Source: Arthrobacter subterraneus (GTDB lineage Bacteria > Actinomycetota > Actinomycetes > Actinomycetales > Micrococcaceae). From it: a stretch of DNA of 64,000 nt. Under the pieces are notes generated by a model. The model ran no database searches, was not told where the DNA came from, and was given only the letters and a program-made list of their open reading frames with translations. The stretch spans positions 124,001 through 188,000 of the forward strand of contig NZ_FNDT01000003.1 of the NCBI RefSeq assembly GCF_900099735.1. The letters are read 5' to 3'. Of the stretch, positions 7,607 through 53,477 are shown one piece after another (positions within the stretch are counted from its first letter, which is position 1; the number at the start of each line of letters is the position of its first letter). The translations under genes were made by a program, and so were the position numbers.

Positions 7607-7707
7607 CCGCTTCCCGGCGGGGCTAGCCGTCGGTGCGTCGGGTCCTAGCCGCGGCCGCTTTCCAGCGGGGCTAACCGCTTCCCGGCGGGGCTAGCCGTCG
7701 GTGCGTC
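7607..7707. repeat. Exact 33-bp direct repeat copying the 3' end of the hydroxyacid dehydrogenase gene
   Basis: Copies at 7607-7639 and 7675-7707 are identical over 33 bases, with a degenerate third copy at about 7655-7673. The second copy spans the last codons and the TAG stop of the minus-strand dehydrogenase (7691-7693). The other copies lie downstream of that stop, just past the end of the convergent hypothetical gene. Each unit contains CCGC-N6-GCGG and, in the two exact copies, the palindrome GCTAGC, which offers a TAG on either strand. Confidence 0.95.
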
Positions 7708-8659
7708 CGTCGCCCCAGGCTCCGCGCACTACCAGATTCTCCGGCTCCCGTCCTTCGGCGAGCGCCTCCAGCTGCCGCCGCAGCAGCCGCACGATACGCG
7801 GCCAGAACGCTCCGGTATTGCCGCCATTGTGAGGGGTGATGATTGCGTTCTTCGCCGTCCAGAGCGGATGGCCGGCAGGGATCGGTTCCGGGTCAAAGAC
7901 GTCGACGGCGGCGTGCAGCCGCCCACTGACCACTTCAGCGGTCAGCGCGTCCGAGTCCACGACCGGGCCCCTTGCCACGTTGATCACCAGCGCACCATCC
8001 GGCAGCGCCGCGAGCACTTCCCTGCCGACCAGCCCGCGTGTGGAGTCCGACAGCGGCGTGATGATGATGAGGACGTCATGACGGGCGGCCAGTTCAACCA
8101 GGTCATCACTGCTGTGCACGTGTCCGCGCTCATCGCTGCGGGCTGTGCTCCCGACCCTGGTGAGCTCCACCTCGAACGCGTCCAGCCGCCTTGCGATTTC
8201 CTCACCGATTCCGCCTACTCCGAGCAGCAGTACCCGGCGGTCCGCAAGCCCCTTGAAGCGTGCGGGCTTCCAGACGCCCTCGCGCTGATTGAGCACTGCC
8301 ACATCGATACCGCGAAGCGATGCGATTGCGAGTCCCACGGCCATCTCGGCGGTGGCAGCGGCATGGACTCCCGCCGCGCTGCACACGGCGACCCCTTCCC
8401 CCGCCATCTGGGGCACTCCTTCGTAGCCGGTTGACTGTGTCTGCACCAGCTTCAGCGACGGTGCTGACTGCAGCGGCTCGGTGAGATCACCCCTGTCCAT
8501 ATACGGCAGCACCGCCATCTCGACGTCCTGAAGATCGGCGCCGTCGGGTGCACTTTTGAAGTCCCACACAGCGAGGGTGATCCCTTCCGGGGCCGGCTGC
8601 AGGGCCTGAAGAAGGTCGTGGTCGGGCACTGTCACGGTTCGGATGGCAGGAGCTGTCAT
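7691..8659 (-). CDS. D-isomer-specific 2-hydroxyacid dehydrogenase family protein
   Basis: NAD(P)-dependent oxidoreductase of 322 residues. Rossmann motif LLLGVGGIGEEIARRL at about residue 143, the catalytic Arg in INVARGPVVDSDAL, the Glu in DVFDPEPIP and the His in ITPHNGGNTGAFW are all in the family order. The substrate cannot be told; homologues act on phosphoglycerate, glyoxylate, hydroxypyruvate or other 2-oxoacids. It is not a second serA because it lacks the C-terminal regulatory domains. It starts at the ATG at 8659. Its 3' end is duplicated downstream of its stop. Confidence 0.9.
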   Translation of the reverse strand: MTAPAIRTVTVPDHDLLQALQPAPEGITLAVWDFKSAPDGADLQDVEMAVLPYMDRGDLTEPLQSAPSLKLVQTQSTGYEGVPQMAGEGVAVCSAAGVHAAATAEMAVGLAIASLRGIDVAVLNQREGVWKPARFKGLADRRVLLLGVGGIGEEIARRLDAFEVELTRVGSTARSDERGHVHSSDDLVELAARHDVLIIITPLSDSTRGLVGREVLAALPDGALVINVARGPVVDSDALTAEVVSGRLHAAVDVFDPEPIPAGHPLWTAKNAIITPHNGGNTGAFWPRIVRLLRRQLEALAEGREPENLVVRGAWGDGRTDG

Positions 8660-8880
8660 GCGATCAGCCTAGCGGGACCCGCGTCCAGGCTTCACACACT
8701 GCTACGCGCGCACTACCAAATGATTCCTTGATACCTCCTACGCCCGCATCATCCACGAGTCAACGCCTATGGACAGCTGTATTCCGTCGTCGTAACGTGT
8801 CGGTCATGCGGACCGCGGGGCACGGAAAGCGGGACGGCGGCAGGGGCTCATCACGAGGGGCGCTGCTTCCTCTCCCTCCG

Positions 8881-10053
8881 GTGTCCGCCGGCCCTCCTGG
8901 GGTGCGGGCCGTCATCCGGCGTCGATATCGCTCAGCCGGTCGGCGCTGCGCGGGTATGGCGGCAATTTTTTGCCTTCTCGCCGGGGTGACCGGTTGCGAA
9001 GGCGGTCCTGAGCCTGCCCCGGTCGTTGAGCAGCCCGATGCCGCCCCATCCGCAACGGACGGGTCCGGTCCGGCCACGCCAACTGCTGCACCGGAACCGT
9101 CCGAACTGCCTGATCCGGCCGTGACGGCAGAAGCGGCGGCAGGCCTCGGAGTCCCGTGGGCGATGGCACTGCTGCCGGACGGAACACTCATCATCACCGA
9201 ACGGGACACCGCCGAGGTGAAGCGTCTCGTCGACGGCCGGGTGGAAGTCATCGGCGTGGTCGAGGATGCGCTGTCTGCAGGCGGCGAGGGCGGGCTGCTC
9301 GGAGTGGCGGTACCGCCCGATTTTTCCGATGTTCCGAGGCTGTATCTCTACTACACAAGTCCCACCGACAACCGTGTAGTGAGCATGTCCTACGACGGGA
9401 ACGGGCTGGGTGAAACAGCAGCGGTGCTGACCGGCATTCCGCGGGCGAACATCCACAATGGAGGGCGCATCAAATTCGGTCCGGATGGGTACCTCTATAT
9501 CGGCACCGGTGATGCATCCAACGCCTCGCTTGCCCAGGATCCCGCAAGCCTCGGCGGAAAGATCCTGCGCGTGACTGCGGACGGCGCACCCGCACCCGGG
9601 AATCCCTTCGATTCCACCGTGTACTCACTGGGGCACCGGAACGTGCAGGGTCTGGCATGGGACTCCGCAGGCCGTCTCTGGGCAAGCGAGTTCGGCCCGG
9701 ACCGGGACGACGAACTGAACCTCATTGTTCCCGGCGGGAACTATGGGTGGCCCCTTGTCACCGGGGCTCCGGGTGAGGAGGAATTCCTTGACGCGCGGGT
9801 TGTCTGGCCATCCACGGCAACGTCTTCTCCCAGTGGGATGGCCATTGTCGGGGACGTCGCCTATATCGGCGGTCTTCGCGGAGAGCGGCTCTGGCGGGTC
9901 CCGCTGGCTGACGGGTCCGCAGGAGAGCCCGCCAGCTTTTTCGACGGCGCCTATGGCCGCCTGCGGGACACCATCGCCGGGGAGGACGGCGGTCTGTTGA
10001 TCGCCACCAATGAGACTGGCGGTTCGCGGATTCTTAGCGTCGAAATGCAGTAG
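8881..10053 (+). CDS. PQQ-dependent glucose/sorbosone dehydrogenase-like lipoprotein
   Basis: Secreted beta-propeller of the soluble glucose/sorbosone dehydrogenase (GSDH, YliI-like) family, probably oxidising an aldose at the outer face of the membrane. An Arg-rich N-region, a hydrophobic stretch and the lipobox LLAGVTGC predict a lipoprotein signal. A Pro/Ala linker follows, and then propeller motifs LGVPWAMALLPDGTLIITER, GLLGVAVPPDF, HNGGRIKFGPDGYLYIGTGD, HRNVQGLAWD and GGNYGWP. The start is uncertain: the frame is open back to 8728, and GTG codons at 8881 and 8902 fit a signal peptide best. No clear ribosome site is visible. PQQ genes are not in this window. Confidence 0.82.
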   Translation: MSAGPPGVRAVIRRRYRSAGRRCAGMAAIFCLLAGVTGCEGGPEPAPVVEQPDAAPSATDGSGPATPTAAPEPSELPDPAVTAEAAAGLGVPWAMALLPDGTLIITERDTAEVKRLVDGRVEVIGVVEDALSAGGEGGLLGVAVPPDFSDVPRLYLYYTSPTDNRVVSMSYDGNGLGETAAVLTGIPRANIHNGGRIKFGPDGYLYIGTGDASNASLAQDPASLGGKILRVTADGAPAPGNPFDSTVYSLGHRNVQGLAWDSAGRLWASEFGPDRDDELNLIVPGGNYGWPLVTGAPGEEEFLDARVVWPSTATSSPSGMAIVGDVAYIGGLRGERLWRVPLADGSAGEPASFFDGAYGRLRDTIAGEDGGLLIATNETGGSRILSVEMQ

Positions 10054-15718: not shown

Positions 15719-18700
15719 ATGTTCCGTTTGGCTCAGCTGTCCCTGGGGAACCGTGCACTGATTGCTCTCATCACCGTCTTCGCGGCGGTGTTCGGTGTCA
15801 TCACCATGGGTTCCCTGAAACAGGAGCTCATCCCGTCGCTGGAGTTCCCGCAGATCACCGTCGTGTCCTCGCTCCCCGGTGCCAGCCCGGAGTATCTGGA
15901 CAAGCAGGTCAGCGAGCCGCTGGAGAGTGCGCTGAGCGGGGTTGAAGGACTGGAGTCGTCCTCCGCAACCTCGCGCAGCGGCGTCTCGACCGTCAGCCTC
16001 ATGTTCGCGTACGGCACGGATCTGGACCGTGCCCGCGGCCAGGTGGACCGCGCCATCTCGACGGTGCGGCCCCTGCTTCCGGAGGACGTTGAACCCCAGT
16101 CGCTGGCCGGCAGCATCAATGACCTGCCTGTCGTCTTCATGGCCGTCTCTTCCGACCAGCCGCTGAGTGAGCTGGGCGAGGAGCTGAGCCGGCTTACCGT
16201 GCCGCGGCTCCAGAAGGTCGAGGGGGTTCGCAGCGCCGAGGTCACCGGCGGCGCCGGGCAGCATATTTCCATCCTGCCCCGAGAGGATGACCTCGTGGCA
16301 GAAGGGCTCGCAACCGGCGACATCATCGACGCCCTGGAAAACAACGGCGAACTGTTTCCGATCGGCACACTGGAAGAAGGCGAACGGTCCCTGACGATCC
16401 AGGCGGGCAGCCCCATCACGTCGCTCGATGACATCCGTGCCCTGCCTATCCTCCCGTCCGATCCCGATCCCGGATCCGGTTCCGGCGGCCCGGTCACTCT
16501 TGGCTCCATCGCCGAGGTGTCCATAGCCGAGGATGACGCCACCTCGGTCACACGCACCAACGGCGTCGAGACGCTGGCCCTCACCGTGACGAAGGTCCCC
16601 TCGGCAGATACGGTGACGCTTTCCAACGCGGTCACGGCCCTCCTTCCCGAGCTTGAGGCCGAGTTGGGGAACGGCGCGGCCATTACAGTCATTTTTGACC
16701 AGGCGCCGTTCATCGAGCGTTCCATTGCCGACCTCACCACTGAGGGCCTGCTGGGACTGGGATTCGCCGTCGTCGTCATTCTGGTGTTCCTCCTCTCCGC
16801 CCGCTCCACCCTGGTGACGGCGGTGTCCATACCGCTGTCGCTGCTGATCACGTTCATCGGGCTGTGGGCAACCGGCTACTCCCTCAACATCCTGACGCTG
16901 GGTGCGCTCACCATTGCGATCGGCCGCGTGGTGGACGATTCCATCGTGGTCATCGAGAACATCAAGCGGCACCTCAGTTACGGGGAAGACAAACGCTCCG
17001 CAATCCTGACCGCCATCCGCGAGGTCGCCGGTGCGATCACCGCCTCCACCCTCACGACGGTGGCTGTCTTCGCTCCGATCGCCTTTGTCGGGGACCTCGC
17101 CGGCGAGCTGTTCCGTCCGTTTGCCCTGACGGTCACCATCGCGCTGCTCGCGTCGCTGGCCGTTTCGCTGACCATCGTCCCGGTGCTGGCGTACTGGTTC
17201 CTCCCCCGGACGATTCCTGCGGCCGACCCCTCGGACCCGGCAACCGGTGCCGCCGGTGCCGCAGGTGCCGCCGGTGCCGCCGGTGCCGCAGGTGCCGCCG
17301 GTGCCGCCGGTGCCGCCGGTGCCGCCGGTGCCGCCGGGCAGCGCTACCTGGCGGAGGAGAAGGAGCAGCGGTCCTGGCTGCAGCGCGGGTACCTTCCCAT
17401 CCTTCGCGTGACCCAGCACCATCCGGTCTGGACCGTCGTGGCGGGAGTCCTGGTGCTGGCGGGCACGGTGGCGCTGGTGCCGTTCATGCAGACGAATCTG
17501 TTGGGCAACACCGGGCAGAACAGTTTCAGCATCAGCCAACGCCAGCAGCCCGGCTCAAGCCTGGAGAACACTGTTGCCGAAGCGGAACGGGTGGAAGCGG
17601 TCCTCGCCCGTTTCGAGGACATCCACGACGTCCAGGTGACTGTCGGTAACGCATCGGGTGCACTTGGAGCGCGTTTCTCCGCCGGCGCCGCCACGGCACA
17701 GTTCACGGTGACCACCGAGGAAGACGCCGACCAGCAGGAGCTGCAGAACGAGGTCCGCGCGGCGCTCAATCAACTTGAGGAGGCAGGAGAGATCTCCCTG
17801 TCCACTCAGCAGGGCGGGTTCGGCACGTCGAGCACCGTGGATATTAACATCACCGCTCCGGAGCCGGACATCCTCGCCGAAGCAACTGACGCCGTCGTCG
17901 CTGCCCTGCAGGGTGTCCCCGGCGCTCGGGATGTCACATCCAATCTGGCCGCGGCGCAGCCGCAGGTCCAGGTGAGCGTGGACCGTGCCGCCGCCGTGCG
18001 CGCGGGCCTGAGCGAGGGGCAGATCGGCGCGCTGCTGGGAGGAAACGTCAGCGCCATTCCCGGCGGCACCGTGCGGCTTGAAGCCACCGACTACCCCATC
18101 CTGATCGGTGAAGGAACCGAAATCTCCAGCCTGGAGCAGCTGCGGGATCTTTCGCTGCCCACCCCGGCAGGGCCGGTTCCGCTCACGGATGTCGCGACCG
18201 TGGAGGAGGTGCAGGTTCCCCTGACGATCACAAGCTCCAACGGCGAGCGGACCGCGCAGGTCTCGATCACGCCGTCGGGCGACAATCTTGGCGCCCTGAC
18301 CGCCGCGGTCACGGAACGGCTGGACGGCGTAAGCCTGCCCGCCGGTGCAACCGCCACGCTCGGGGGCGCTGCCGAACAGCAGGCCGACTCCTTCGGGCAG
18401 CTGTTTCTTGCCCTCTGGGCGGCGGTTGCGATTGTGTACGTCATCATGGTGGCAACGTTCAAGAGCCTGATCCAGCCGCTGATCCTCCTGGTCTCGGTGC
18501 CGTTTGCCGCGACCGGCGCGATCGCACTGCTGGTGATCACCGGGATTCCGCTGGGGCTGCCGTCACTGATCGGGATGCTCATGCTGGTGGGGATTGTGGT
18601 GACCAACGCGATCGTCCTGATTGACCTGATCAACCAGTACCGGCAACCCCGGAACGGTTCGCCCGGGCTCAGCGTCGCGGAGGCAATTACACGCGGCGCC

Positions 18701-19002: not shown

Positions 19003-20085
19003 ATGCAGATCGGTATCTTCAGCGTCGGCGACGTAACTGTTGACCCCACCACCGGCACAGCACCCACGGAACACGAACGCATCAAGGCCATGGTGACCAT
19101 CGCCAAGCACGCCGAGGACGTCGGAATGGATGTCTTCGCAACAGGCGAGCACCACAACCGCCCGTTTGTGCCCAGCTCCCCGACCACCATGCTGGGATAC
19201 GTTGCGGCGCAGACCTCCCGCATCATCCTCTCCACTTCGACGACGCTGATCACCACCAATGACCCCGTCAAGATCGCAGAAGACTACGCGATGCTGCAGC
19301 ATCTCGCCGACGGCCGTGTGGACCTGATCCTGGGGCGCGGGAACACGGCGCCTGTCTATCCCTGGTTCGGCAAGAACCCGCAGGACAGCGTTGACCTCAC
19401 TGTGGAGAACTACCACCTGCTGCGCCGGCTCTGGGACGAGGACGTGGTCACCTGGGAAGGCAAGCACCGCACTCCCCTGAACAACTTCACCTCCACGCCG
19501 CGACCGCTCGACGGCGTTGCACCATTTGTCTGGCACGGTTCCATCCGCACTCCACAGGTCGCGGAAATCGCCGCCTACTACGGGGACGGATACTTCGCCA
19601 ACAACATCTTCTGGCCCAAGGAGCACTACCAGCAGCTCATTTCGCTCTACCGTGAACGGTATGCGCACTACGGCCACGGGACGTCTGAGCAGGCCATCGT
19701 CGGGCTGGGAGGCCAGTTCTTCATCCGCCCCAACTCACAGGACGCCGTCAACGAGTTCCGTCCCTACTTCGACAACGCGCCGGTCTACGGTCACGGTCCG
19801 TCGCTGGAGGACTTCACCTCGCAGACCCCGCTGACGGTGGGCAGCCCGCAGGAGCTGATCGACAAGACGCTGACTTTCCGTGAGTTCTTCGGCGATTATC
19901 AGCGTCAGCTCTTCCTGGTGGACCACGCAGGCCTTCCCCTGAAGACGGTGCTGGAACAGCTGGACCTGTTCGGATCCGACGTCCTGCCGACCCTGCGCAA
20001 GGAGTTCGCCGAGCGCACTCCCGCTTCAGTGCCTGCTCCCCCGACGTTCGAGAACCGGAAGGCTGCGGTGTCCGCCAATGCCTGA
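19003..20085 (+). CDS. LLM-class flavin-dependent monooxygenase
   Basis: Luciferase-like, FMNH2-dependent oxidoreductase of 360 residues. The ATG at 19003 follows a strong AGGAGGAGGAA; a longer reading would overlap the RND gene. TIM-barrel family features: MQIGIFSVGDVTVDPTTGTA, FATGEHHNRPFVPSSPTTML, then ILGRGNTAPVYPWFGKNPQD. It resembles the small actinobacterial group exemplified by CE1758. It overlaps the marR gene by 8 bases, so the two are probably co-transcribed and the MarR protein may sense the substrate. The substrate is not evident. Confidence 0.88.
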   Translation: MQIGIFSVGDVTVDPTTGTAPTEHERIKAMVTIAKHAEDVGMDVFATGEHHNRPFVPSSPTTMLGYVAAQTSRIILSTSTTLITTNDPVKIAEDYAMLQHLADGRVDLILGRGNTAPVYPWFGKNPQDSVDLTVENYHLLRRLWDEDVVTWEGKHRTPLNNFTSTPRPLDGVAPFVWHGSIRTPQVAEIAAYYGDGYFANNIFWPKEHYQQLISLYRERYAHYGHGTSEQAIVGLGGQFFIRPNSQDAVNEFRPYFDNAPVYGHGPSLEDFTSQTPLTVGSPQELIDKTLTFREFFGDYQRQLFLVDHAGLPLKTVLEQLDLFGSDVLPTLRKEFAERTPASVPAPPTFENRKAAVSANA

Positions 20086-20557
20086 GTCTCCAGCCACGCC
20101 GCTGCGTCTCACCGCCGATGCCTGGGAGTCTCTCTTCCGGGCGCAGGTGGCGGTGATGCGCAGGCTGCGCCGGGACCCCTCCTTCGCGGCGCTTGCGATC
20201 GGCGAGTACGACGTCCTCTTCAACCTCAGCCGCTGTCCCACCGGCTGGACCCGGTTGAATGAACTGAACAGCCACCTGTTGATCAGCCAGCCGAGCCTGA
20301 GCCGTATGGCGGAACGCCTGGAGCACAAAGGGCTGATTCAACGCAGGCAGGCTCCCGATGACCAGCGCGGCGTCCTTCTCGCTTTGACCGACGAAGGGCG
20401 CCGCCTGCAGCGCGAAATCGGTTCGGCTCACGTCCGCAGCATCCACGCCCTGCTGGGCCCGCTCCTGAACGAGGAAGAAATGGAGCAGCTGCTTGCCCTG
20501 ACCTCGAAAATCAGGGCTGGTCTGGAGGACGACGGCGGTACTCACCCCTCGATGTAG
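20078..20557 (+). CDS. MarR-family transcriptional regulator
   Basis: DNA-binding repressor-type protein of 159 residues. Winged-helix region LSRCPTGWTRLNELNSHLLI, then SQPSLSRMAERLEHKGLIQR as the recognition helix, and the wing DDQRGVLLALTDEGRRL, the typical MarR signature. The ATG at 20078 overlaps the end of the monooxygenase gene. The likely targets are its own operon and perhaps the RND permease upstream; this is inference from position. It ends 78 bases before the convergent transglutaminase gene, in a repeat-rich junction. Confidence 0.92.
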   Translation: MPESPATPLRLTADAWESLFRAQVAVMRRLRRDPSFAALAIGEYDVLFNLSRCPTGWTRLNELNSHLLISQPSLSRMAERLEHKGLIQRRQAPDDQRGVLLALTDEGRRLQREIGSAHVRSIHALLGPLLNEEEMEQLLALTSKIRAGLEDDGGTHPSM

Positions 20558-20563
20558 CTGTCC

Positions 20564-20664
20564 CTCCGCCGGACGCTAGCCGAGCTGGACCGGTGAGGTG
20601 CCGTCTCTCCTCCTACTGGCCGCTCCGCCAGACGCTAGCCGAGCTGCACCGGTGAGGTGCCGTC
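20564..20664. repeat. 42-bp direct repeat copying the 3' end of the transglutaminase gene
   Basis: Copies at 20564-20605 and 20623-20664 match at 40 of 42 positions, period 59. The second copy holds the final nine codons, the TAG and 12 further bases of the minus-strand transglutaminase gene. The first lies downstream of that stop, directly after the convergent marR gene. Confidence 0.95.
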
Positions 20665-21438
20665 GTCGTCGTGCAGGATATCTGCGGTGGCGGTGACCTT
20701 GATCGTGTCCAGGGTGAGGCTACCGCCGACCGTGGAAAGGAACGCCGTGTCCGAGGCGTCACGCCCGGTGGCGATGCGCAGCAGGTTGGTCCGCGGAGCC
20801 AGGCCGGTTGCGTCCACGACATGCCAGGCGCCGTCCACCCACGCCTCCACTACTGCATGGAAATCCATCGGCGTCAGGCCCGGCGCATACACCGACACCA
20901 GGCGTGCCGGGACGTCCTTGGCGCGCAGCAGCGAAATGACCAGGTGGGCATAGTCCCGGCAGACGCCCCGGCGGGCCAGCAGCGTGTCCGTGGCGCCGTC
21001 GGTATGGCGGGAAGATCCGGACACATAACTGATGTTTCCGCTCACCCATTCGCGGACGGCCTGCAGCAACTCTGTACCCTGCAGGCTGCCGAACAGCCCG
21101 TACGAGGTCGGCAGCAGCCTGTCCGATTCGCAGTACCGGCTGGGGCGCACGTACCGGATGAGATCAGCCTCGGTTCGCTCGGCTGCGGTGGCTGTCCCTG
21201 AGACCTCGGCTCGGTAGTTCAGCTCAAGCGTGGCCGGTTCCTCCAGCGTCAGCGTATGGAGAAGCCCGCCGTGCAGGTCCTCGACTACTGCCGGTTCCAC
21301 CGCCTCGCCATTCGCTGTGATCTCCAGCGTTTCAGCAAGCGCCGTATACCCGTCATTGCGCGCAACCGCCACCGAGAAAGCCATTGACGTACCGGCTCGT
21401 GTGCGGGCGGTCAGCTGAGCCGTCACTGTTCGATTCAT
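20635..21438 (-). CDS. Transglutaminase-like cysteine protease family protein
   Basis: 267 residues from the ATG at 21438, with GGAG upstream. The C-terminal transglutaminase-core domain has the Cys-His-Asp triad in order: RRGVCRDYAHLVISLLRA (Cys), DFHAVVEAWVDG (His) and WHVVDATGL (Asp). An N-terminal beta-rich domain precedes it, as in bacterial transglutaminase-like proteins. No signal peptide is seen. The activity could be proteolytic or transamidating; the substrate is unknown. It is divergent from the SDR gene, with 92 bases for both promoters. Confidence 0.88.
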   Translation of the reverse strand: MNRTVTAQLTARTRAGTSMAFSVAVARNDGYTALAETLEITANGEAVEPAVVEDLHGGLLHTLTLEEPATLELNYRAEVSGTATAAERTEADLIRYVRPSRYCESDRLLPTSYGLFGSLQGTELLQAVREWVSGNISYVSGSSRHTDGATDTLLARRGVCRDYAHLVISLLRAKDVPARLVSVYAPGLTPMDFHAVVEAWVDGAWHVVDATGLAPRTNLLRIATGRDASDTAFLSTVGGSLTLDTIKVTATADILHDDDGTSPVQLG

Positions 21439-21530
21439 TCGGCGAAGCTCCTGGCGGATCTCGATGAGGGATGGGGTGTGCCGGTCTGAAACACTGGCTG
21501 TAACACGGTACGACGAGAAAGGCACACCCT

Positions 21531-22457: not shown

Positions 22458-22510
22458 CTATCGAACTGGTGTTCGGGAAAAATGTCGGTGGTGGGTGATG
22501 GACTTGGGTC

Positions 22511-23929: not shown

Positions 23930-24214
23930 GACGAAGGAAGGGTGGACGGTGGGAGAAATCCCCCAGCCGATCCGTCCCACCCGAACACTAAGTGGAGGGT
24001 CGGCCGGAGAGCAGCGCACTCAGAGGTGGGACTGGACGGGGGCACACACCGAGGCGGCGGCTGACGGGTACGCACGCGAGCGCGAGCTGATGGACATGCC
24101 ACGGCCTCGGCCTGAAGGACACTTCCACGAGCGAGCTGACCGGTACGCACGCCAGCGCGTACCTGATGGACACGCCATGGGCTCGACTGGAGCGTGACGC
24201 GAACGCGGGTGCAG
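23930..24214. other. Convergent intergenic region with a degenerate direct repeat
   Basis: 285 bases between the DUF222/HNH gene and the convergent lipoprotein gene. A degenerate 50-base direct repeat is present at about 24060-24109 and 24135-24185 (period 75). It shares GGTACGCACG, CTGATGGACA and other blocks. An open frame crosses it, but its Arg/Ala-rich repetitive translation does not look like a gene. Confidence 0.7.
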
Positions 24215-24997: not shown

Positions 24998-25089
24998 GAT
25001 CAATCCTTTCGGGTTACTCACGTCCACTCTATGCAGTGAAGCAGCTCACGGGGAGGCATCCGCAGCGGGCGCGGCGCAGAATCACTTCC

Positions 25090-25986
25090 ATGAAGCGTTT
25101 CGTTCAAACCTCCCTGGGTACAGTCGCGGTGCGCGTGCACCCGGGCACTGAGGACCGGACCACCGGGCGGGGCTCGCCCCCGTGGGTGTTTCTCCATGGC
25201 GCCTCGGGTTCCTGGCGTACCTTCCGCGAGCTGACTCTCAACCGGGCGATTCCCGTGGAGTACGACAGCGTCTTTCTTGATCTCCCGGGCTGGGGCGATT
25301 CTCCCGGTCAGGTGCCCTTCACGGTCGATCAGCAGAGCACTGCCGTCGTGGAAGCTCTGACAGCGCTGAACTACCGGTCCTGGTGCCTCTTCGGGCATTC
25401 CATGGGAGCGGTACTTGCTCTGGACATTGCAGCGTCACGCCCCGAAGAAACGCACGCCGTCGTCGCTCTTTCTCCAACCGCGCTGACCGCGGGCGCGGCT
25501 CTGAACCGACCGCTTCGCTACCCGGCGATGGCTCCGCTTGTCGGCATGCACGCACTGATGTTCGTGTTGCGCGCTCTCGGACGAACAGCCCCTGGGCTGC
25601 TGCGTATCGCTGAGCGGACAGGGCTTCTTCGCCTTGTCCTGGGCCCGTTCTTCGTCCGTCCGCGCATGCTGCAGCGTCGTGTCTTCGTGGACTTGGCTGT
25701 CGACGCTCGTCCGGCCTCGTTCATTGCTGCAGCAAACGCGCTGAAAAAGTACGACGCCGGTATCTGGCAGCAGATCGCGGCGCCGACAGTCCTCGCTCGA
25801 GGCAGCCGGGACATCTTCACCCCGGCTGCGGAACTGCATGCGCTTGCAACGCTTATCTCCACTGCTCAAAGCGTGGTTCTGGCCGGAACCGGGCATTTCG
25901 CACACGTAGAAGATCCGGTCGGTACCTGGCAGACGCTGCTGACGGCCCTACAGTCGACTCCGGATTCCCTGCACCTTCCGGACTGA
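25090..25986 (+). CDS. Alpha/beta hydrolase
   Basis: 298 residues from the ATG at 25090. Oxyanion region VFLHGASGSWRTFREL, nucleophile elbow LFGHSMGAVLAL (Ser in GHSMG), Asp probably in ARGSRDIFTPAAEL and His in GTGHFAHVEDP, so the triad is complete. A hydrophobic cap segment lies between the nucleophile and the acid. Esterase, haloperoxidase-like or lipase activity is possible; the sequence alone does not decide. The last six codons and the stop lie in the first unit of a three-copy repeat, so its C-terminal tail may have been changed by the duplication. Confidence 0.88.
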   Translation: MKRFVQTSLGTVAVRVHPGTEDRTTGRGSPPWVFLHGASGSWRTFRELTLNRAIPVEYDSVFLDLPGWGDSPGQVPFTVDQQSTAVVEALTALNYRSWCLFGHSMGAVLALDIAASRPEETHAVVALSPTALTAGAALNRPLRYPAMAPLVGMHALMFVLRALGRTAPGLLRIAERTGLLRLVLGPFFVRPRMLQRRVFVDLAVDARPASFIAAANALKKYDAGIWQQIAAPTVLARGSRDIFTPAAELHALATLISTAQSVVLAGTGHFAHVEDPVGTWQTLLTALQSTPDSLHLPD

Positions 25987-26155
25987 CGAGACGACCGCCC
26001 GCCCGGCAAGCGAGGTGACAGCCCTACGCGCGGCCGCCCAAACCCTGCACCTTCCGGACTGACGAGACGACCGCCCGCCCGGCGAGGTGACGACCCTACG
26101 CGCGGCCGCCCAAACCCTGCACCTTCCGGACTGACGAGACGACCGCCCGCCCGGC
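25967..26155. repeat. Three-copy direct repeat across the ends of two convergent genes
   Basis: An identical 41-base core occurs at 25967-26007, 26043-26083 and 26115-26155. The spacers (35 and 31 bases) are also nearly alike, giving a tandem array with periods of 76 and 72. The first copy contains the TGA of the alpha/beta hydrolase; the spacer after the second copy contains the TAG of the cysteine desulfurase gene, and the third copy encodes part of its C-terminal tail. Confidence 0.97.
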
Positions 26156-27244
26156 AAGCGCTATCTCGGCGTCGCTCGTTGACGCGGTCCAGGACAGCCG
26201 CAATGCTGTCTGGGCGACGTCAGGTTCCACTCCGAGCGCCTGCAGCACCGCTGACGGTTCGCTGGAGCCCGCAGCACAGGCGGATCCGCTCGATGACACC
26301 ACGCCGGCACGTTCCAGCTCCAGCAGAATCGCTTCCCCGTTTGCACCGGGAAAGCAAAACGACGCCACATTCGGCAGCCGTTGCTCCGGATGACCGGTAA
26401 GAAAGGATCCTTCCAGGCCGTCGAGCACAGTGCCGATCAGATGGTTGCGACGCGCAAGCGAAGCAGAATAATGGTCGAGACGTTCCTGCTGGGCAAGCCG
26501 CAATGCGGTTGCCAGGGCCACCGCCCCGGCGACGTTCTCCGTTCCCGACCGGCGCCCCCGCTCCTGGCCGCCGCCATGGATCAGCGGCTCCAACGGAATT
26601 CTCGACCGGACAAAAAGGACGCCACAGCCCTTCGGCGCCCCCAGTTTGTGGCCGGAAATGCTCATCGCGTCTACTCCGAGTTCCGCCGTATCGAGCCGCA
26701 GCCATCCTGCTGCCTGCACCGCATCCGTGTGGAAGGGAATCCTGCGTTCACGGCACACGGCTGACAAGGCGGCAATGGGCTGGACAGTGCCGACCTCATT
26801 GTTGGCGTACATGATGGTGCATAGCGTGGTGTCGTCGTCGAGTGCGGCGCGGAGCGTCTTTTCCTCCACCAGCCCCTCAGCGGTCACGGGAAGCAGCGAG
26901 ATCCGGAAGCCATGCAGCCGTTTCAGGTAGTCAAGCGTTTCAAGAACCGCGGGATGCTCGATCGACGATGCGACAATGTGCTTCCCTCGCGGCCGTGCCA
27001 GCGCAATGCCCTTGATCGCGAGGTTGTCTGCCTCGGTGCCTCCCGAGGTGAAGAGAACGTCTGCCGGTTTGCAGTTCAGCTCCGCGGCAACAAGTCTGCG
27101 CGCGTAATCGAGCGCACGGGCTGCAGATTCACCGACCGTGTGGTGGCTGGACGGGTTTCCGTAATCGGTGGTGAGCAGCGGCCACATGGCTTCAAGCACT
27201 TCCCTGCGAACAGGAGTGGTGGCCGCAGCGTCGAGATAAATCAC
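26096..27244 (-). CDS. NifS/IscS-like cysteine desulfurase of the NAD operon
   Basis: PLP enzyme of 382 residues that takes sulfur from cysteine. It begins with GTG at 27244, overlapping the nadC stop by 4 bases (GTGA). Motifs: YLDAAATTPVRREVLEAM, the PLP lysine in SISGHKLGAPKG, and the active-site cysteine loop in SSGSACAAGS. In other bacteria a NifS-like enzyme beside nadABC supplies sulfur for the 4Fe-4S cluster of quinolinate synthase, and the operon position supports that role here. The last 20 or so residues (LAGRAVVSSVRKVQ onward) come from the repeat array and may be non-essential. Confidence 0.92.
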   Translation of the reverse strand: MIYLDAAATTPVRREVLEAMWPLLTTDYGNPSSHHTVGESAARALDYARRLVAAELNCKPADVLFTSGGTEADNLAIKGIALARPRGKHIVASSIEHPAVLETLDYLKRLHGFRISLLPVTAEGLVEEKTLRAALDDDTTLCTIMYANNEVGTVQPIAALSAVCRERRIPFHTDAVQAAGWLRLDTAELGVDAMSISGHKLGAPKGCGVLFVRSRIPLEPLIHGGGQERGRRSGTENVAGAVALATALRLAQQERLDHYSASLARRNHLIGTVLDGLEGSFLTGHPEQRLPNVASFCFPGANGEAILLELERAGVVSSSGSACAAGSSEPSAVLQALGVEPDVAQTALRLSWTASTSDAEIALAGRAVVSSVRKVQGLGGRA

Positions 27245-33110: not shown

Positions 33111-34073
33111 GTGGATGAACTCCTGGCCGAGCGGTACCAACCCATTGAGTTGATCGGTACCGGCGGCGCAGCATCGGTGTTTCGGGCACTGGACCGAAAC
33201 CTCGGCCGGGACGTGGCAATCAAGGTCTTCAACCCCACCACCTCCGATGATGATGACTACCGCCGCCAGCATACGGAAACGATGCTGTTGTCCACCCTGA
33301 ACCATCCGGGACTGGTAACGCTGCACGATGCCGGCCTCCAGAATGACGGCAACGGCAAGACCACCAGCTTTCTGGTGATGGAACTGGTGGACGGCCTTGA
33401 TTTGCGCAAGCTCCTCAAGTCCGGGCCGCTGCCCTCCGAACATGTGGCCCAGCTCGGCGCCGACCTGGCGGACGCCCTGGCATACATCCACTCGCAGGGC
33501 GTCATTCACCGCGATGTGAAGCCGGCGAACATCCTGATGTACCACTCCGGCGAGCAGGACACCCGGCTGTATCCCAAGCTCACCGATTTCGGCATTGCCC
33601 GCATGGTTGAAGCGACGCACTCCACAGCACACGGCGCCACCATCGGCACCGCCAACTACCTGAGCCCCGAGCAGGCCGAGGGGACGCGCGTCGAGCCCAG
33701 CTCCGATATCTACTCGCTTGGGCTGGTACTCCTCGAATGCCTGACCGGCGAGAAGGCATTTCCCGGTCCTGTTGTCGAGGCCGCCGTGGCCAGGTTGCTA
33801 CGGGACCCCGAGGTGCCCGAATCCCTCGGCGCCGACTGGGTCAGCCTCCTCACCCGCATGACGGCCAGGGACCCGCAGGCCCGCCCGGACGCACATGAGG
33901 TGGCTCTTGCGCTCCGAGTGGGAAGCGACAAGGACGACGACGGCGCGGTAACCCTCAACCTGCCCACCCCGGACGATGCCCAGGCGGACACTCCTGACGT
34001 GAGCACCGGAGGGGTCACGACCGGAAACGTCCACATCCCCGCACCGCCGTCGCGGGCACCGTCCCTGGGCTAG
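33111..34073 (+). CDS. Serine/threonine protein kinase (Hanks type), soluble
   Basis: 320 residues. GTG start at 33111 after CCGGAGGT. Complete kinase domain: Gly-rich loop LIGTGGAASVFRALD, VAIKVF lysine, catalytic loop HRDVKPANIL, TDFGIARM, and NYLSPEQAEG in the activation segment, ending near residue 270. A Thr- and Pro-rich tail of about 50 residues follows. There is no membrane segment or PASTA domain, so it is not a PknB-type cell-wall sensor; it should be cytosolic. Targets unknown. The gene end lies in a 16-base triplication. Confidence 0.93.
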   Translation: MDELLAERYQPIELIGTGGAASVFRALDRNLGRDVAIKVFNPTTSDDDDYRRQHTETMLLSTLNHPGLVTLHDAGLQNDGNGKTTSFLVMELVDGLDLRKLLKSGPLPSEHVAQLGADLADALAYIHSQGVIHRDVKPANILMYHSGEQDTRLYPKLTDFGIARMVEATHSTAHGATIGTANYLSPEQAEGTRVEPSSDIYSLGLVLLECLTGEKAFPGPVVEAAVARLLRDPEVPESLGADWVSLLTRMTARDPQARPDAHEVALALRVGSDKDDDGAVTLNLPTPDDAQADTPDVSTGGVTTGNVHIPAPPSRAPSLG

Positions 34074-34114
34074 CTTCGGATCGGGCTAGCTCCGGATCGG
34101 GCTAGCTCCGGAAT
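34067..34114. repeat. 16-bp unit repeated three times across the kinase stop codon
   Basis: Units at 34067-34082, 34083-34098 and 34099-34114 are variants of GGGCTAGCTCCGGATC. The first holds the final Gly codon and the TAG of the kinase gene. A 14-base block, TCCCTGGGCTAGCT, seen at 34062-34075 recurs at 34212-34225 over the stop of the convergent small gene, so both genes stop inside the palindrome GCTAGC. Confidence 0.95.
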
Positions 34115-34163
34115 GCCTGAGCCCGGCGGAAACCTGGTTCGGGCAATTGCGGCCCTTAACCCA

Positions 34164-34191: not shown

Positions 34192-34219
34192 ATCCGTCTG
34201 CACTCGTTCTTTCCCTGGG

Positions 34220-34384: not shown

Positions 34385-34593
34385 GATGACCTCCATCGTT
34401 TGGACCGGCGTTACAGTTCCGATCCTAGGGTTCGGCGGCGGCGGGCGAAAGATCCCAGTGAGCGGCTCCAGCCTCGCGGAGAGCATGAAAGAGCAGACCA
34501 GAGACGTATCCGCGCCCGGTTGCCGCTGGAATTGAACGGTACTCAGGCAATTGCGGGTCGCTTCAGGAATTCGAGTCACCGGGGAATCGCCGG

Positions 34594-35472: not shown

Positions 35473-35638
35473 GGCACCACGGTAGCAGCGGCAAGGGCGT
35501 CCGGGACGGCATTCGTAAATGGCAGTCGGGATGCTGTGCAGCGGGTGCAGCACCTGCCTCTGGTCTTCCATTACCGTGGAGGTGGGCGCAGCCGGGCGGA
35601 CGCTGGCCCGTATCGGGGAGGAAGCAGGCTACAGACGC

Positions 35639-36310: not shown

Positions 36311-36372
36311 TTGTATCGGCTGGGCCTCTCACCTCGGCTCACCGACTGCACACAAGAAAGAAACTGCACACA

Positions 36373-36423
36373 AGAAAGACCGGCTCGCGGGGCTGGGGGA
36401 ACCCAAGGCGAACCGGTCTTTCT
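36373..36423 (+). terminator. Terminator after the TetR gene
   Basis: 11-bp stem AGAAAGACCGG (36373-36383) and CCGGTCTTTCT (36413-36423) with a long GC-rich loop; the 3' arm ends in a T-rich stretch. Confidence 0.8.
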
Positions 36424-36618
36424 CGATACCGGACCCGTCAGTCCGGGGGCGGGCCCCTCGTACAAGGCCCGTCTTGCAGTTCAGTGTAGGTTCGGCTTCC
36501 GTCCGCATGCCATGGGGAGAACTACCCATGGCACTATCCATATCCCTGTGCCGCGCTATCCCTGTGCCGCGCTCCGGGGTTGCCGCCGCGCCGTCACCCA
36601 CGAGTCCTGACAGCACAA

Positions 36619-36671
36619 AGGCCGCCCCACCTGCGCTCCGTGACGATTCGGGAGAGAAGGTGGAGCGGCCT
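36619..36671 (-). terminator. Terminator after the MHS-type transporter gene
   Basis: 14-bp stem with one mismatch, arms 36619-36632 and 36658-36671, just 7 bases beyond the transporter stop. Confidence 0.75.
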
Positions 36672-36678
36672 CGGGCGG

Positions 36679-39576: not shown

Positions 39577-42500
39577 TTACACTCGTTCAAGCTGATTCAC
39601 GAAGCGCACCGACGAGCCCGTCCGGCCCTTGGAGACGTGCAGTTGCGCCGGTATTCGCTGCTTCAACTCGGCGACGTGGCTGACCAGCCCCACCACACGG
39701 CCCCCGTCCCGAAGATTCTCAAGCGCATCCATCACCTGTTCAAGAGACTGCTCATCGAGGCTGCCGAAGCCTTCGTCAACAAAGAGCGTCTCGATGTCCA
39801 GTCCGCCCGACTCCTGCTGCACCACGTCGGCCAGTCCAAGAGCGAGTGCGAGGGACGCCATGAACGACTCGCCTCCGGAAAGTGTTGCGGTGTCACGGCG
39901 CATGCCCGTCCAGCTGTCGATGACATTCAAACCAAGCCCGGATTTCCGGTTACCCGACCGGGAGTCGCTGTGGACCAGGGAGTACCTGCCGTCCGACATG
40001 TGCTGCAGCCGTTCGGTGGCCGCCTCGGCCACCTGTTCCAGCCGGGCAGCGAGGACATAAGTGGCAAGGCTCATCCGGTACAGGTTCTCACCGTTGCCCC
40101 GGACGGTGTCAGCGACAGACCTGGCAAGCCGGTATGCCTGCCGCAACGGCACCAGCCTGTCGTCAAGCGCGGCTACCCGGTCTGCATAGGAACCCATCTG
40201 CACCACCGACTGTTCCAGTAGCCCCACCTCGAGCACCGCCCGCTCGAGCTGCACCCTTACACTCTCCTCGGCCCGGGCAGCAGCGGCGATTTCGTCTTCT
40301 TCGGGAATTGGTTCGCCGTTCTTTTCCGAAGCGGCTGCCGCAACATTCTCTGGACGTTCCAGGTCCCGTTCTATGCGGTGGGCAGCGTGCTCGGCCTCCC
40401 GGATGCGCTGCTCCATCGCCTCCACCCGGCTGTCATCCAGCAGGGCCTGCCGAACAGTGTCCGGCGAAGCGAACTCGGTTGCTGCCAGCTGCAATGTCAG
40501 CGCGTGTTCAGCTTTCTCCAGACGCGCCGCTGCCTGTTGCCACGCGGACAGGGCAGCGCAGACCGCGCCGACGCGTTGTGCGGTCCCTTCGAGTTGTGCC
40601 ACTTTCTCCGCGACTGTGGCGTACCTGCCGCGCACCGACTCCAGCCGGGCAAGCAGTGCCGTGTGCTGCTCCTCCAAGGCGGAGAGCAGCGAAGAGAACT
40701 CTGCCTCGCTTCGGACGGCTTCGGCCTGCTGCTCACGCACACCGGCGAGCGCCGCCTCTGCCGTTGCTTTCCTGGCGAGGAGTTCCGCCGAGGCGCGGAC
40801 CGCCGCCTCTGCCTCTCCGCGTTCCTCCTCCAGGGAGGCGAGCGCGGCGCGCACCGTCCCGGCCGGCGTATCCCCGCTTCGGGCGCGCAACCCTGCGGCC
40901 TGAAGCGCTGCAGCGTCCCGCACCGCGGTGGTATCCCGGAAACTGCGCTCTGCTTCATCCTGGTGCGCACGGGCGGACTCCTCATCCTCCCGGGTCACCA
41001 ACCCCTGCGTTCCGGCGGTTGCCGGCGCAGGGTGCTCCTGGCTTCCGCACACCGGACAGGGCTCCCCCGGGCTCAGCCGCGCTGCAAGCTCGGCAGCAGT
41101 CTGCTCAAGGCGTAACTGAAGTTTCTGCAACCAGTCTTCCTTGGCCGCCAGAAACAGCGCACGCTGGGAATCCTGGCGCTCATCCAGCTCCCGCAGTGAC
41201 CGCTCCGCCCGGTCTGCCTGCGCAAGCAGGTCCAACTGTGCGGCTGTCTCGGCACATGCTGATGCCAGCTCCGCCGCACGGGCGCCCGCCGCTTCCGTTG
41301 TCTCGATCCGTGCTGAGAGGTCGCTCAGCTCCTCCTCGAGCCGCTGCTGCCGGGTGCTGTACCGATCCAGCTCTGCGGTCTTCACCTCACTGCGCTGCAC
41401 AGTGATCCTGATCCGGTCTTCCAGACGGACAAGATCTTGCTCCGTCGGCAGAGCCGCACGCGCCTCTGCGAGCCGTTCGCGGAGGGCCTCGTGTGCACTG
41501 TCGAAAGCGTCTCCTGACACCTCGACGTCCAACGTGAGAAGGTCAGGGATCTCCTGCCGGGCGGCAGGATCGGCCTGCAGCTGGCCGTTCAGTGAATGCA
41601 TCTTATCCCGGGTGCTGCGCGCCTGATCCGCTGCCTCGTCACGCGTCTGGAGAGGACCCTGCAGGATCTGCGCGCGCCTGTGATTCTCAAGCAGTTCCCG
41701 CAGTGCACCCGCCTCAGCGAGGGCGATCTGATTTTCCGCAACCTCTGCCGCCAGCCGGCGGAAGGCCAGACGGTCCCGCCGTTCGGTTTCCAGCCGGGAC
41801 CGCCGCTTCGCAGCGTTGTCCCGGACAGCCGTCAGCTCCCTGGCGCGGTTCCGCCCTGCCACGACGGCGTTTGTCAGCCGGTCCTGGAGAGCGGCAAGAG
41901 CAGACGCCGGATCAGCCTCAGCCTCGCCGGGCGCTGATCCGTCTCCAGTGCCTCGCGCACCACCGGACTGGTCGGTGGAGCCGGGCCGGTCAGTGGGGGC
42001 GGACTGGTCGGTGGAGCCGGGCCGGTCAGTGGAGCCGGGTTTTTCAGTGTTGCCCGTCGGACCAGCCGCACTTGCGTGCTCGTCGGAACTGCGCAGCGGA
42101 CCAGCGGACAGGGGATTTTCCGACAGCGGACCACCGGACAGGGGATCGTCCGACAGGCCATGACGCTCCACCTCTTCAACGGCCCGGGAAAGGAGGTCCT
42201 CCAGCTCACTCTCAACCTCCTGTGCGCGCGTGGAAGCGTGAGCGGCACGCTCCGCGAGCAGCTGCTCGACGGCGGAGAAACGGTCGGTCGCAAAGAGCCG
42301 CTGCAGGAGCTCACCACGGGCGGCGGCGTCTGACCGGAGAAAAGCCGCAAACTCTCCCTGGGGCAGCATGACCACCCTGGTGAACTGTTCCCGGTTCATG
42401 CCGAGCAGAGCCTGCAGTTCCGCTCCCGCTTCATCGTTCCGGGTGGAACGGGTGACCCACTCCCCCGCCACCCGTTCCCGAAGCATGGTTTTCGCTTGCT

Positions 42501-45077: not shown

Positions 45078-45084
45078 GGATCTG

Positions 45085-46195: not shown

Positions 46196-46867
46196 TCAGG
46201 AAGCTTCGCGCTTGCGCCGAACTTTTCGCACCTTGCTCACAATCAGGAATGCCATCACCAGTACGACGGCGACAATCACCAGTTTCTGGAAGATGTCCGC
46301 ATACTGCTCCACCAGATGCCAGTTCTCCCCCAGGTAGAAGCCTGCAAGCACGAAGATGGAATTCCAGATGAGACTGCCGGCGAGCGTCAGCCCCAAAAAC
46401 GTCCAGACCGGCATTCGTTCGATGCCTGCAGGAATAGACACCAGGCTCCGGAAGATGGGCACCATGCGCCCGAAGAACACGGCCTTGTAGCCGTGGCGGT
46501 TGAACCACGCTTCGACGCTGTCCACATCTTCCAGGTCCACCAGAGGAACTTTGGACACCAGGCGCCGCATCCGGTCCCGCCCGAGCAGCACCCCGAGCAT
46601 ATAGAGGAGATAAGCGCCCACCACGGACCCGGCGGTGGTCCAGAACAGTGCTTCAAAGAGGGTGAAGTCTCCCCGGCTGGCCGTGAATCCTGCCAGTGGA
46701 AGGATCACCTCACTCGGCAGGGGCGGGAAGAGATTCTCGAGAGCGATCGCAAGGCCTGCGCCTGGAGCTCCGATCGTTTCCATCAGGGTCACAGCCCAGT
46801 CAGCGACCCCTCCGAGGGTGGGTTCATTACCGGTCTGCAGGGGCAGGTAGCTCACATCTCTTCTCAT
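46196..46867 (-). CDS. DedA/VTT-family membrane protein
   Basis: 223 residues with four to five membrane segments. The DedA signature is clear: LENLFPPLPSEVILPLAGF, a re-entrant loop with G-rich segments, then FFGRMVPIFRSLVSIPAGIE (the conserved Arg and Pro of the second loop). Ends in a basic tail VSKVRKVRRKREAS. Family members are lipid scramblase/flippase-like or needed for membrane homeostasis. ATG at 46867; the upstream region contains a 40-base direct repeat. Confidence 0.9.
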   Translation of the reverse strand: MRRDVSYLPLQTGNEPTLGGVADWAVTLMETIGAPGAGLAIALENLFPPLPSEVILPLAGFTASRGDFTLFEALFWTTAGSVVGAYLLYMLGVLLGRDRMRRLVSKVPLVDLEDVDSVEAWFNRHGYKAVFFGRMVPIFRSLVSIPAGIERMPVWTFLGLTLAGSLIWNSIFVLAGFYLGENWHLVEQYADIFQKLVIVAVVLVMAFLIVSKVRKVRRKREAS

Positions 46868-46890
46868 AACCTGGTTAAGTCTGCCCTATC

Positions 46891-46981
46891 AGCCGGAGCA
46901 CTCGGACAGCGGGTACGCCCGTGACGAACCGCTGCCGTGTCGGCCGGCGCGCTCGGACAGCGGGTACGCCCGGGATGAACC
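46891..46981. repeat. 40-bp imperfect direct repeat upstream of the DedA gene
   Basis: Copies at 46891-46930 and 46942-46981, period 51; an internal 21-base block (CTCGGACAGCGGGTACGCCCG) is exact at 46901-46921 and 46952-46972. Unlike most other repeats in the window it lies between co-directional genes, 65 bases beyond the rdgB stop, and is not a copy of a gene end. Confidence 0.9.
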
Positions 46982-47045
46982 CCCATGGCAGTCTGGGACG
47001 CAAGTCCCCGGCCGGCACTTAAAGCAACCTGCTGACCGGGTACAT

Positions 47046-48471: not shown

Positions 48472-48519
48472 GGCTCCAGTCTGCCACGAGCCTGTTCCAC
48501 AGGCGCGATCCGGCGATGT

Positions 48520-48650
48520 CAGCGGAACGGTGAAACTGCACCCTCACACCTGGTACGAAACCCCGGCAACCGCCACAGCGACGTCAGCGAAACGGTGAAA
48601 ACGGCACCCTCACACCTGGTACGAAACCCCGGCAACCGCCACAGCGACGT
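48520..48650. repeat. Tandem 65/66-bp duplication of the 3' end of the MBL-fold gene
   Basis: Unit 1 at 48520-48584 and unit 2 at 48585-48650 abut directly; 46 bases are identical (48539-48584 and 48605-48650). Unit 2 contains the last 12 to 13 codons and the TGA of the minus-strand MBL gene; unit 1 is a downstream copy carrying the same codons and stop. This is the clearest gene-tail duplication in the window. Confidence 0.97.
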
Positions 48651-49401
48651 CCCCCGAATAGCTGCTGCGCGCCTCTTCCATGGCCAGAACCGCATCATTC
48701 CAGACCGGAAGGTGCGTAAGCAGCAGTCTCCGTGACGCAGCGGCTGAGGCTACGTCACCTGCCCTTTTGCCCGTCAGGTGGACGCCGTGGATCCCGTCAT
48801 CCCTGCCCTCGTGGAAGGCAGCTTCGCACAGGAAGATGCCGGAACCGGAAGCGGCCTCGATGAGCCCCTCACACGCGTCCGTATCTCCCGAATAGGTCAG
48901 CACCCTCTTCCCGCCCGGAGCTTCGGGGTCATCGGCTTCGACCCGGAGGGCGTAGGCCTCCTCCACCGGGTGCAGGACGGGATAGGGGGTGATGGTGAAC
49001 GGTCCGATCCGCACGGGGGTACGGGGCGACCAGGCGCGGAAGTCGAAGTCCTCATGCATACCCGGCTCGAGCTCCAGACCGTAGGCGGTTGCCATCCGGT
49101 CTGCTGTGCCGGCCGGACCCCAGACGGGGATCCGAGGCCTGTTCCAGCCCGCCGGATCCCAGTGCACCGCTACATGAAGGCCGCACAGGTCCATGCAGTG
49201 GTCGGGATGGAGGTGGGTCAGCAGGACTGCGTCGATGTCCCGCAGGTCCATGTAACGCTGCAACGCGCCGAGAGATCCGTTGCCAAGGTCAAGGAGGATG
49301 CGCCAGGTCCTGCCGTCCTCCTGCACCGTCACGAGGTAACAGGAAGCCGGCGAGTGCGGCCCGGGGAACGAACCGCTGCACCCCACGATGGTGAGCTTCA
49401 T
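48610..49401 (-). CDS. MBL-fold metallo-hydrolase, Rv1339-like (possible cyclic-nucleotide phosphodiesterase)
   Basis: 263 residues, beta-lactamase fold. Metal motif [13 protein letters not shown] (HxHxDH) is intact; later ligands are [11 protein letters not shown] and [12 protein letters not shown]. Position between murI and rph is the same as Rv1339 in Mycobacterium tuberculosis, which has been reported to hydrolyse cAMP. Same order, same strand and overlap with murI by four bases (ATGA) argue for orthology. The cAMP role here is inference. Its 3' end is tandemly duplicated downstream. Confidence 0.88.
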
Positions 49402-51417: not shown

Positions 51418-51423
51418 TTTCAT

Positions 51424-52755: not shown

Positions 52756-53375
52756 CACGCGCACTGATCATCGTCGACGTCCAGAATGATTTCTGTGAGG
52801 GAGGCTCGCTCGCGGTCGAAGGCGGTGCCGGGGTTGCCCAGTCGATCAGCGACTACATCGACGCCCAGGGCGACCACTATGACTACATCGTCGCCACCCA
52901 GGACTGGCACATCGATCCGGGCTCGCACTTTTCCGACCAGCCCGACTACGTTGACTCCTGGCCGGTGCACTGCGTTGCGGAGCAGCCCGGCGCCCAGTTC
53001 CATCCCGACCTCGACACCGAAACGGTGGATGCCGTGTTCCGGAAGGGACAGTACGAGGCGGCGTACTCAGGTTTCGAGGGTGTCCTGGCTCCGGAGGACC
53101 AGGTACCGACCGGGGAACAACGACCGGCAATCGGTGTGTCCACCACTGCCGATGACGCCGTCTCGCTCGATGACTGGCTCCGGGACCACGAGGTCGATGA
53201 GGTGGCCATTGCCGGCCTGGCGGCCGATTACTGCGTACGGGCTACCGCACTGGATGCAGTGGTGGCCGGATACGCCGTCCGCCTGCTGGTGGACTACACC
53301 CGGCCCGTTCACCCCGAGCGCCTCGGCGACGTGCTCGCCGAACTTGAAGACGCCGGGGTCGAACTCATCGACTGA
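52752..53375 (+). CDS. pncA: Nicotinamidase (isochorismatase family)
   Basis: Deamidates nicotinamide to nicotinate. 207 residues. The metal and catalytic residues are seen: Asp in ALIIVDVQNDFCEGG, the DWH metal motif in TQDWHIDPGSHF, the Lys in VFRKGQYEAAYSGFEG and the catalytic Cys in AGLAADYCVRATALDAV. Feeds PncB. The tail of the convergent helicase gene downstream is duplicated. Confidence 0.94.
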   Translation: MTRALIIVDVQNDFCEGGSLAVEGGAGVAQSISDYIDAQGDHYDYIVATQDWHIDPGSHFSDQPDYVDSWPVHCVAEQPGAQFHPDLDTETVDAVFRKGQYEAAYSGFEGVLAPEDQVPTGEQRPAIGVSTTADDAVSLDDWLRDHEVDEVAIAGLAADYCVRATALDAVVAGYAVRLLVDYTRPVHPERLGDVLAELEDAGVELID

Positions 53376-53423
53376 CGGACAGCTGGTGCGGAAGCCGCAG
53401 ACTCCCCCGGATGCGGGTGCGCT

Positions 53424-53477
53424 GGATCCGGTGAATCACGTGCGCCCGATGGATCCGGTGAATCACGTGCGCCCGAT
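53424..53477. repeat. Perfect 27-bp tandem duplication of the helicase gene end
   Basis: Units 53424-53450 and 53451-53477 are identical. The second contains the final four codons and TGA (53463-53465) of the minus-strand helicase gene; the first is a copy downstream of that stop. Confidence 0.97.

Follow-up and report, generated by a model that had tools for sequence, protein, structure and literature searches.

Short tandem duplications at convergent gene junctions of Arthrobacter subterraneus and their probable tolerance at gene 3′ ends

Bacterial intergenic variable-number tandem repeat (VNTR) and minisatellite loci consist of tandem units at single loci, and the MIRU of mycobacteria form one dispersed family of tandem units, which lie between genes and may contain gene ends. 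Head-to-tail duplications by slippage or template switching have been described, for example, at penA (PMC4169377). Here we describe short direct repeats at the gene junctions of a 64,000-nucleotide stretch of the Arthrobacter subterraneus genome (contig NZ_FNDT01000003.1, positions 124,001 to 188,000; hereafter the window). The setting is ordinary chromosome with housekeeping-type genes according to Pfam matches; names given to window genes by other means are our own assumed assignments. The NadB-like protein has its nearest named relatives in Arthrobacter sp. We consider it likely that these repeats are short tandem duplications, each made from its own local sequence, which are tolerated at gene 3′ ends.

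Eight convergent junctions had been listed in an initial annotation of the window, and an independent gene caller based on coding potential reproduced their coordinates exactly (Table 1). An ungapped self-match scan of gaps and flanks (scored +1/−3, lag at most 200) likewise returned the result given there, with direct repeats observed at seven of the eight and 45077/45085 as the junction without one. Score cut-offs were at least 13 for junction counts, 14 for densities by position within a gap, 16 for repeats spanning gene ends and 18 for the scan of contig C35. At the first of these, repeats were present at 7/8 convergent, 2/35 co-directional and 0/9 divergent junctions. The seven convergent repeats scored 17–41 against a shuffle maximum of 11–14, and at none of the nine repeat-bearing junctions did any of 500 dinucleotide shuffles per junction equal the observed score. 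Tandem Repeats Finder reported arrays at seven of the nine, the exceptions being 20557/20635 and 23929/24215. The measured lags (16–76 bp) agree with the unit lengths annotated initially, as does the copying of gene 3′ ends: at five of the seven repeat-bearing convergent junctions and at the co-directional junction 48450/48610 a gene end was located within a copy. The repeats at 24060, 36345 and 36541 are confined to the gap and hold no gene end. A second co-directional gap with a repeat, 46856–47045 (lag 51), is new to this analysis. In six of the nine cases the matched part is shorter than the lag, and there are only about two to three copies.

Table 1. Convergent junctions of the window and co-directional gaps with local direct repeats
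Junction	Orientation	Span	Repeat	Gene ends and remarks
7601/7691	convergent	7602..7707	perfect 33-base repeat 7607-7639 / 7675-7707, lag 68; second repeat 7602-7625 / 7650-7673, lag 48	last copy includes final 17 nt of right-hand (7691) gene
20557/20635	convergent	20564..20664	42-base repeat, 2 mismatches, lag 59	right copy includes last 30 nt of transglutaminase-like (20635) gene
23929/24215	convergent	24060..24159	25-base repeat, 2 mismatches, lag 75	gap only
25986/26096	convergent	25967..26160	72-76 bp unit, 2.6 copies	3′ ends of both genes: 20 nt of 25986 gene, 46-60 nt of 26096 gene
34073/34220	convergent	34067..34112	16-bp unit, ~2.9 copies	begins in last 7 nt of protein-kinase (34073) gene
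36310/36679	convergent	36345..36379	18-bp unit, 1.9 copies	gap only
36310/36679	convergent	36541..36573	16-bp unit, 2.1 copies	gap only
45077/45085	convergent	45078..45084	none	7-bp gap; five relatives' gaps 8-29 bp
53375/53463	convergent	53423..53478	27-bp unit, 2.1 copies	includes last 16 nt of helicase-like (53463) gene
46856-47045 (gap)	co-directional	46892..46981	39-base repeat, 4 mismatches, lag 51	gap only
48450/48610	co-directional, both genes −	48513..48651	53-base repeat 48533-48585 / 48599-48651, lag 66	one copy includes last 42 nt of upstream gene

Orthologous junctions were compared in relatives in which both neighbouring genes are adjacent, so that six of the seven repeat-bearing convergent junctions and both co-directional cases were comparable; for 23929/24215 no relative had an adjacent orthologous pair. 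At every comparable junction the window's repeats were directly seen to be missing from the relatives, in which the gaps are mostly shorter. The 7601/7691 gap, for example, measures 89 bp here and 1–23 bp in four relatives with adjacent neighbours, and that at 53375/53463 measures 87 bp against 21–74 bp. Compared with the relative G037, whose DNA is about 80% identical to this genome, the median difference in gap length was +69 for six convergent, 0 for 28 co-directional and −2 for seven divergent gaps. A general gain of length across the window was rejected since only the convergent gaps differ from G037. As far as the comparison reaches, the window's repeats are thus best read from the alignments as lineage-specific tandem duplications. 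Relatives carry events of their own: G012 has a duplication at the 7601 junction with a 20-bp unit that includes the last codons and the stop, G037 has one at the 20557 junction, also with a 20-bp unit, and in G013 the junction immediately to the right of the window carries a lag-55 repeat.

Instead of the gap of +109 present here, the gene pair at 25986/26096 shows an overlap in three relatives, of 39 bases in G037 and G012 and of 47 in G013. Two array lags account exactly for the present gap (−39+76+72=109), an arithmetic that was obtained for this junction only, the other gaps being too diverged. The rightmost copy aligns with the G037 overlap, including a vestigial stop of the left gene, and keeps the overlapping arrangement of the relatives. 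This junction clearly illustrates how the overlap between two convergent genes is dissolved by tandem duplication. As separate observations on this array, a block of about 15 nt (25952–25966) in the left gene's tail differs in the first copy between identical or nearly identical flanks, and by eye the silent copies are closer to the relatives' C-terminus than is the gene itself.

The bias towards convergent junctions is also found outside the window. For counts beyond the window we used our own simple gene caller and set aside gaps that exceed 1000 bp or contain runs of N. The sample of this genome comprised 1,461,953 bases (38%). A wider pool added other genomes, mostly relatives, in the form of 78 named loci, sampled G037 sequence and orthologous regions from five relatives; 80 loci had been named, but two are duplicates of G012 and G036. 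The window was left out of both counts. Ten of the pooled loci bear titles that name Microbacteriaceae, Microbacterium, Schumannella or unrelated taxa, and loci from related genomes do not count as independent because of their shared ancestry. Repeats were directly observed at 11/183 convergent, 22/838 co-directional and 3/179 divergent junctions of this genome, and at 39/534, 43/2221 and 8/464 junctions, respectively, of the wider pool; the orthologous regions of the five relatives alone gave 9/65 convergent junctions. Calculated per gap length in the pool, the density falls from 0.87 per kb in convergent to 0.25 in co-directional and 0.08 in divergent gaps, so the bias described in the initial annotation is genuine. 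It also holds among gaps of 50–400 bp (29/217, 39/950 and 6/399), where convergent differ from co-directional gaps with p = 2.4e-6 and from divergent gaps with p = 3.6e-9 (Fisher test). The enrichment is, however, milder than the window suggested, and the window's frequency of seven in eight did not carry over to the rest of the sampled genome. In literature searched by titles and abstract openings we found no description of a convergent bias of short duplications, which may nevertheless be in print.

The position of the repeats relative to stops and starts points to the 3′ end of genes as the permissive site. Outside the window, repeats with one copy spanning a gene end (score at least 16) occurred at 7/1076 convergent and 11/2241 co-directional 3′ ends, and at 3/2241 co-directional and 0/956 divergent 5′ ends, which sums to 18/3317 3′ ends and 3/3197 5′ ends. 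Within co-directional gaps, 30 repeat centres lay in the stop-near half and 13 in the start-near half, at nearly equal numbers of bp (0.35 and 0.15 per kb). Each repeat would most likely have arisen by replication slippage or template switching, a step that we infer rather than observe, and a duplication at a gene 3′ end would be nearly harmless and hence survive. If a unit straddles a convergent junction, the end of the left gene would stay in the first copy and that of the right gene in the last copy, whatever the length or frame of the unit, while promoters, leaders and ribosome-binding sites would remain untouched. A co-directional junction would offer one tolerant side only and a divergent junction neither. 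This geometry would by itself suffice to expect more repeats at convergent than at co-directional, and more at co-directional than at divergent junctions. The copies would later decay by mutation.

Alternatively, duplications may form more often at convergent junctions because head-on transcription causes breakage or template switching. The initial annotation had taken the convergent bias to favour a reading of this kind, which the rates per stop do not support for stop-spanning events: such repeats occurred at 3/248 convergent and 9/642 co-directional ends with a gap of at least 100 bp, and at 6/618 and 10/1174 ends with a gap of at least 30 bp. Numbers are small, especially at the larger gap, but similar rates at convergent ends and at co-directional ends with room speak for 3′-end tolerance rather than for head-on transcription.

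Several observations weigh against 3′-end tolerance, and some of them speak for a head-on contribution. For an ancestral gap of at least 30 bp, 34/302 convergent (11.3%), 42/1153 co-directional (3.6%) and 1.8% of divergent junctions carried a repeat, and this threefold convergent rate per junction is above the prediction from two tolerant 3′ ends. The same holds per bp, with a near-stop density of 0.85–1.46 per kb in convergent gaps and of 0.32–0.33 per kb within 80 bp of a co-directional stop. A convergent rate of more than twice the co-directional rate leaves room for a head-on hotspot. Furthermore, two control replicons from outside the Actinobacteria had no clear convergent bias, with repeats at 2/27 convergent, 9/192 co-directional and 2/26 divergent junctions in Cupriavidus metallidurans and at 0/31, 1/176 and 4/35 in pSymB of Sinorhizobium meliloti. 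Divergent gaps shift in length by at least 15 bp between relatives in a proportion of 0.44–0.75 (convergent 0.57–0.89), yet hold few repeats. Moreover, uniform tolerance does not predict the crowding in the window, where 7/8 convergent junctions bear repeats compared with 11/183 elsewhere (Fisher p = 1.5e-7).

Measures of constraint gave a divided picture, each based on three to six convergent gaps per genome pair. When gap columns are counted, a comparison on the side of tolerance, convergent gaps had the lowest identity of all gap zones in four of five genome pairs, two of these four including this genome, whose duplications themselves lower the value; identity so counted ranged from 0.43 to 0.75 in convergent gaps and from 0.55 to 0.76 in stop-near co-directional halves, a rough measure by which coding flanks also align poorly. 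Also to be counted against tolerance is that, in aligned columns alone, convergent gaps were more conserved than stop-near co-directional halves in two of three pairs of relatives (0.882 vs 0.832, 0.820 vs 0.794 and 0.798 vs 0.804). A lower constraint of convergent gaps is therefore not established, a point that head-on transcription can claim for itself together with the concentration in convergent gaps of both the window's repeats and its length gain over G037. The convergent excess would reflect either a stronger constraint on co-directional gaps near the stop or a contribution of head-on transcription. Taking both sides together, we regard head-on transcription as unlikely to be the main cause. 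It seems to us rather unlikely that these actinobacteria have genuine mutational hotspots at their convergent junctions, where abutting or overlapping genes are repeatedly pushed apart, and that in this genome nearly every such junction in a tract of about 46 kb was hit.

The local crowding of repeats in the window is real, although the window came to attention through its pattern, so that selection of an extreme has to be allowed for. One regional event in this lineage, for instance the copying of some 46 kb by error-prone break-induced replication, after which mainly duplications at gene ends survived, would fit the excess given above and the lack of clear clustering of repeats among blocks of the sampled genome without the window (p 0.20). 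It would also fit the divergence between copies in the window, which is homogeneous (10/297; chi 11.5 on 8 df). Outside the window, however, copy divergence is the same and equally homogeneous (41/1056; chi 28.9 on 35 df), so that a distinct age of the window's repeats was rejected. Nor do the other gaps of the window hold a clear excess over their counterparts in the rest of the genome, and the choice of the window for its pattern would itself favour an extreme. A single regional event is accordingly very improbable indeed. Two further candidates were rejected. An origin–terminus gradient failed because, in G037 coordinates, contigs C25 and C38 lie similarly far from dnaA and C35, which has no repeat with a score of at least 18 in 180 kb, lies near the terminus. 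The CTAG motif was found seven times in 13660 bp of convergent gaps outside the window and five times in about 1170 bp inside, where four of the five lie in copied units. As an observation on another contig of this genome, positions 1–180000 of C35 hold no local repeat with a score of at least 18, coding or not, in 180 kb, unlike C38 and C30.

The initial annotation had also suggested that selection might retain copies as spare stops or as additional terminators of transcription. A stop does lie inside five of the seven convergent repeats and one co-directional repeat, and three of 20 unit foldings fell below z −2 relative to shuffles (25967 and 34067 on the − strand, 36541 on the + strand). 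The other 17 did not, and terminator-like sites in a scan of 20000–37000 were at chance level (11 vs 9.7 expected). Among the stop-containing lags (68, 59, 76 for the left and 72 for the right gene at 25986/26096, 16, 27 and 66), four of seven are not multiples of three; with these copied stops out of frame, a role as spare stops is weak. The absence of the copies from relatives argues in the same direction, and we judge selection for spare signals very unlikely.

A dispersed repeat family of the REP, ERIC or MIRU type, or an assembly artefact, is scarcely credible. Unit sequences differ between junctions, and in a whole-genome search the three stretches 7600–7700, 25967–26042 and 48533–48600 each matched their own locus only, in line with the initial view that no REP or ERIC family is involved. 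The assembly is a draft of 64 contigs, the only support that we found for an artefact; several copies differ by substitutions, and other genomes carry similar events.

The use of NucS in place of MutS/MutL had been offered as a reason why slips persist. A profile search of the genome matched NucS_C at C38:190557 (148.5 bits) and again on C56 (44.4 bits), and gave no match to MutS_V, so this part of the proposal stands. Its role as the reason for the repeats does not. Duplications or slips of 16–76 bp are also beyond canonical MutS repair. The C. metallidurans control, which we take to be MutS-bearing (as presumably are the hosts of both control replicons), has an intergenic density of about 0.40 per kb (13 repeats in 245 junctions), comparable to this genome outside the window (36 in 1200, 0.29 per kb); pSymB has five in 242, about 0.14 per kb. 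NucS is reported in the review PMC8228993 to be unable to correct indels; total indels are given there as increased 1- and 0-fold in nucS mutants and 286- and 44-fold in canonical mutants, figures that concern short indels. Given this scope and the similar density in C. metallidurans, NucS offers no good reason for the repeats.

Additional features were seen in and around the window. Tandem repeats also occur in its coding regions, at 17244–17337 (9-bp unit, 10.4 copies) and at 41964–42039 and 42094–42157 (36-bp and 30-bp units). At 34073/34220, 14 nt (34062–34075) recur in direct orientation at the end of the other gene (34212–34225), possibly a non-tandem copy. The convergent gap 36311–36678 contains a candidate small RNA of about 110 nt on the − strand (36368–36482), with a −10-like TAnACT, two GC-rich hairpins and a terminator-like hairpin; three of its 34 predicted pairs are changed on both sides over six sequences. 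With a covariance model it was found in eight of 38 genomes from the genus, of which G031 and G018 are new and the other six had served to build the model. A sample of 149 genomes from the family gave two matches, both within this genus; no Rfam family matched at gathering score. Furthermore, genome G029 has 18 DnaA-domain matches in near-identical groups, which we take to be IstB-like ATPases of insertion sequences.

Overall, our analysis measures how the frequency of small duplications changes with gap type and offers a simple geometric reason for this gradient. If the convergent excess beyond two tolerant ends holds, gene orientation becomes a directly testable factor in small-scale genome instability. 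Compared with known systems, the repeats of the window resemble VNTR and minisatellite loci as tandem units of 16–76 bp at single loci, but have only about two to three copies. With MIRU they share intergenic tandem units that include gene ends, but the window's units are mutually unrelated. Closest are slippage or template-switch duplications such as those described at penA, which are likewise local, unit-specific, head-to-tail and drawn from their own neighbourhood; here they instead lie at gene 3′ ends of a natural genome and arose without laboratory selection.

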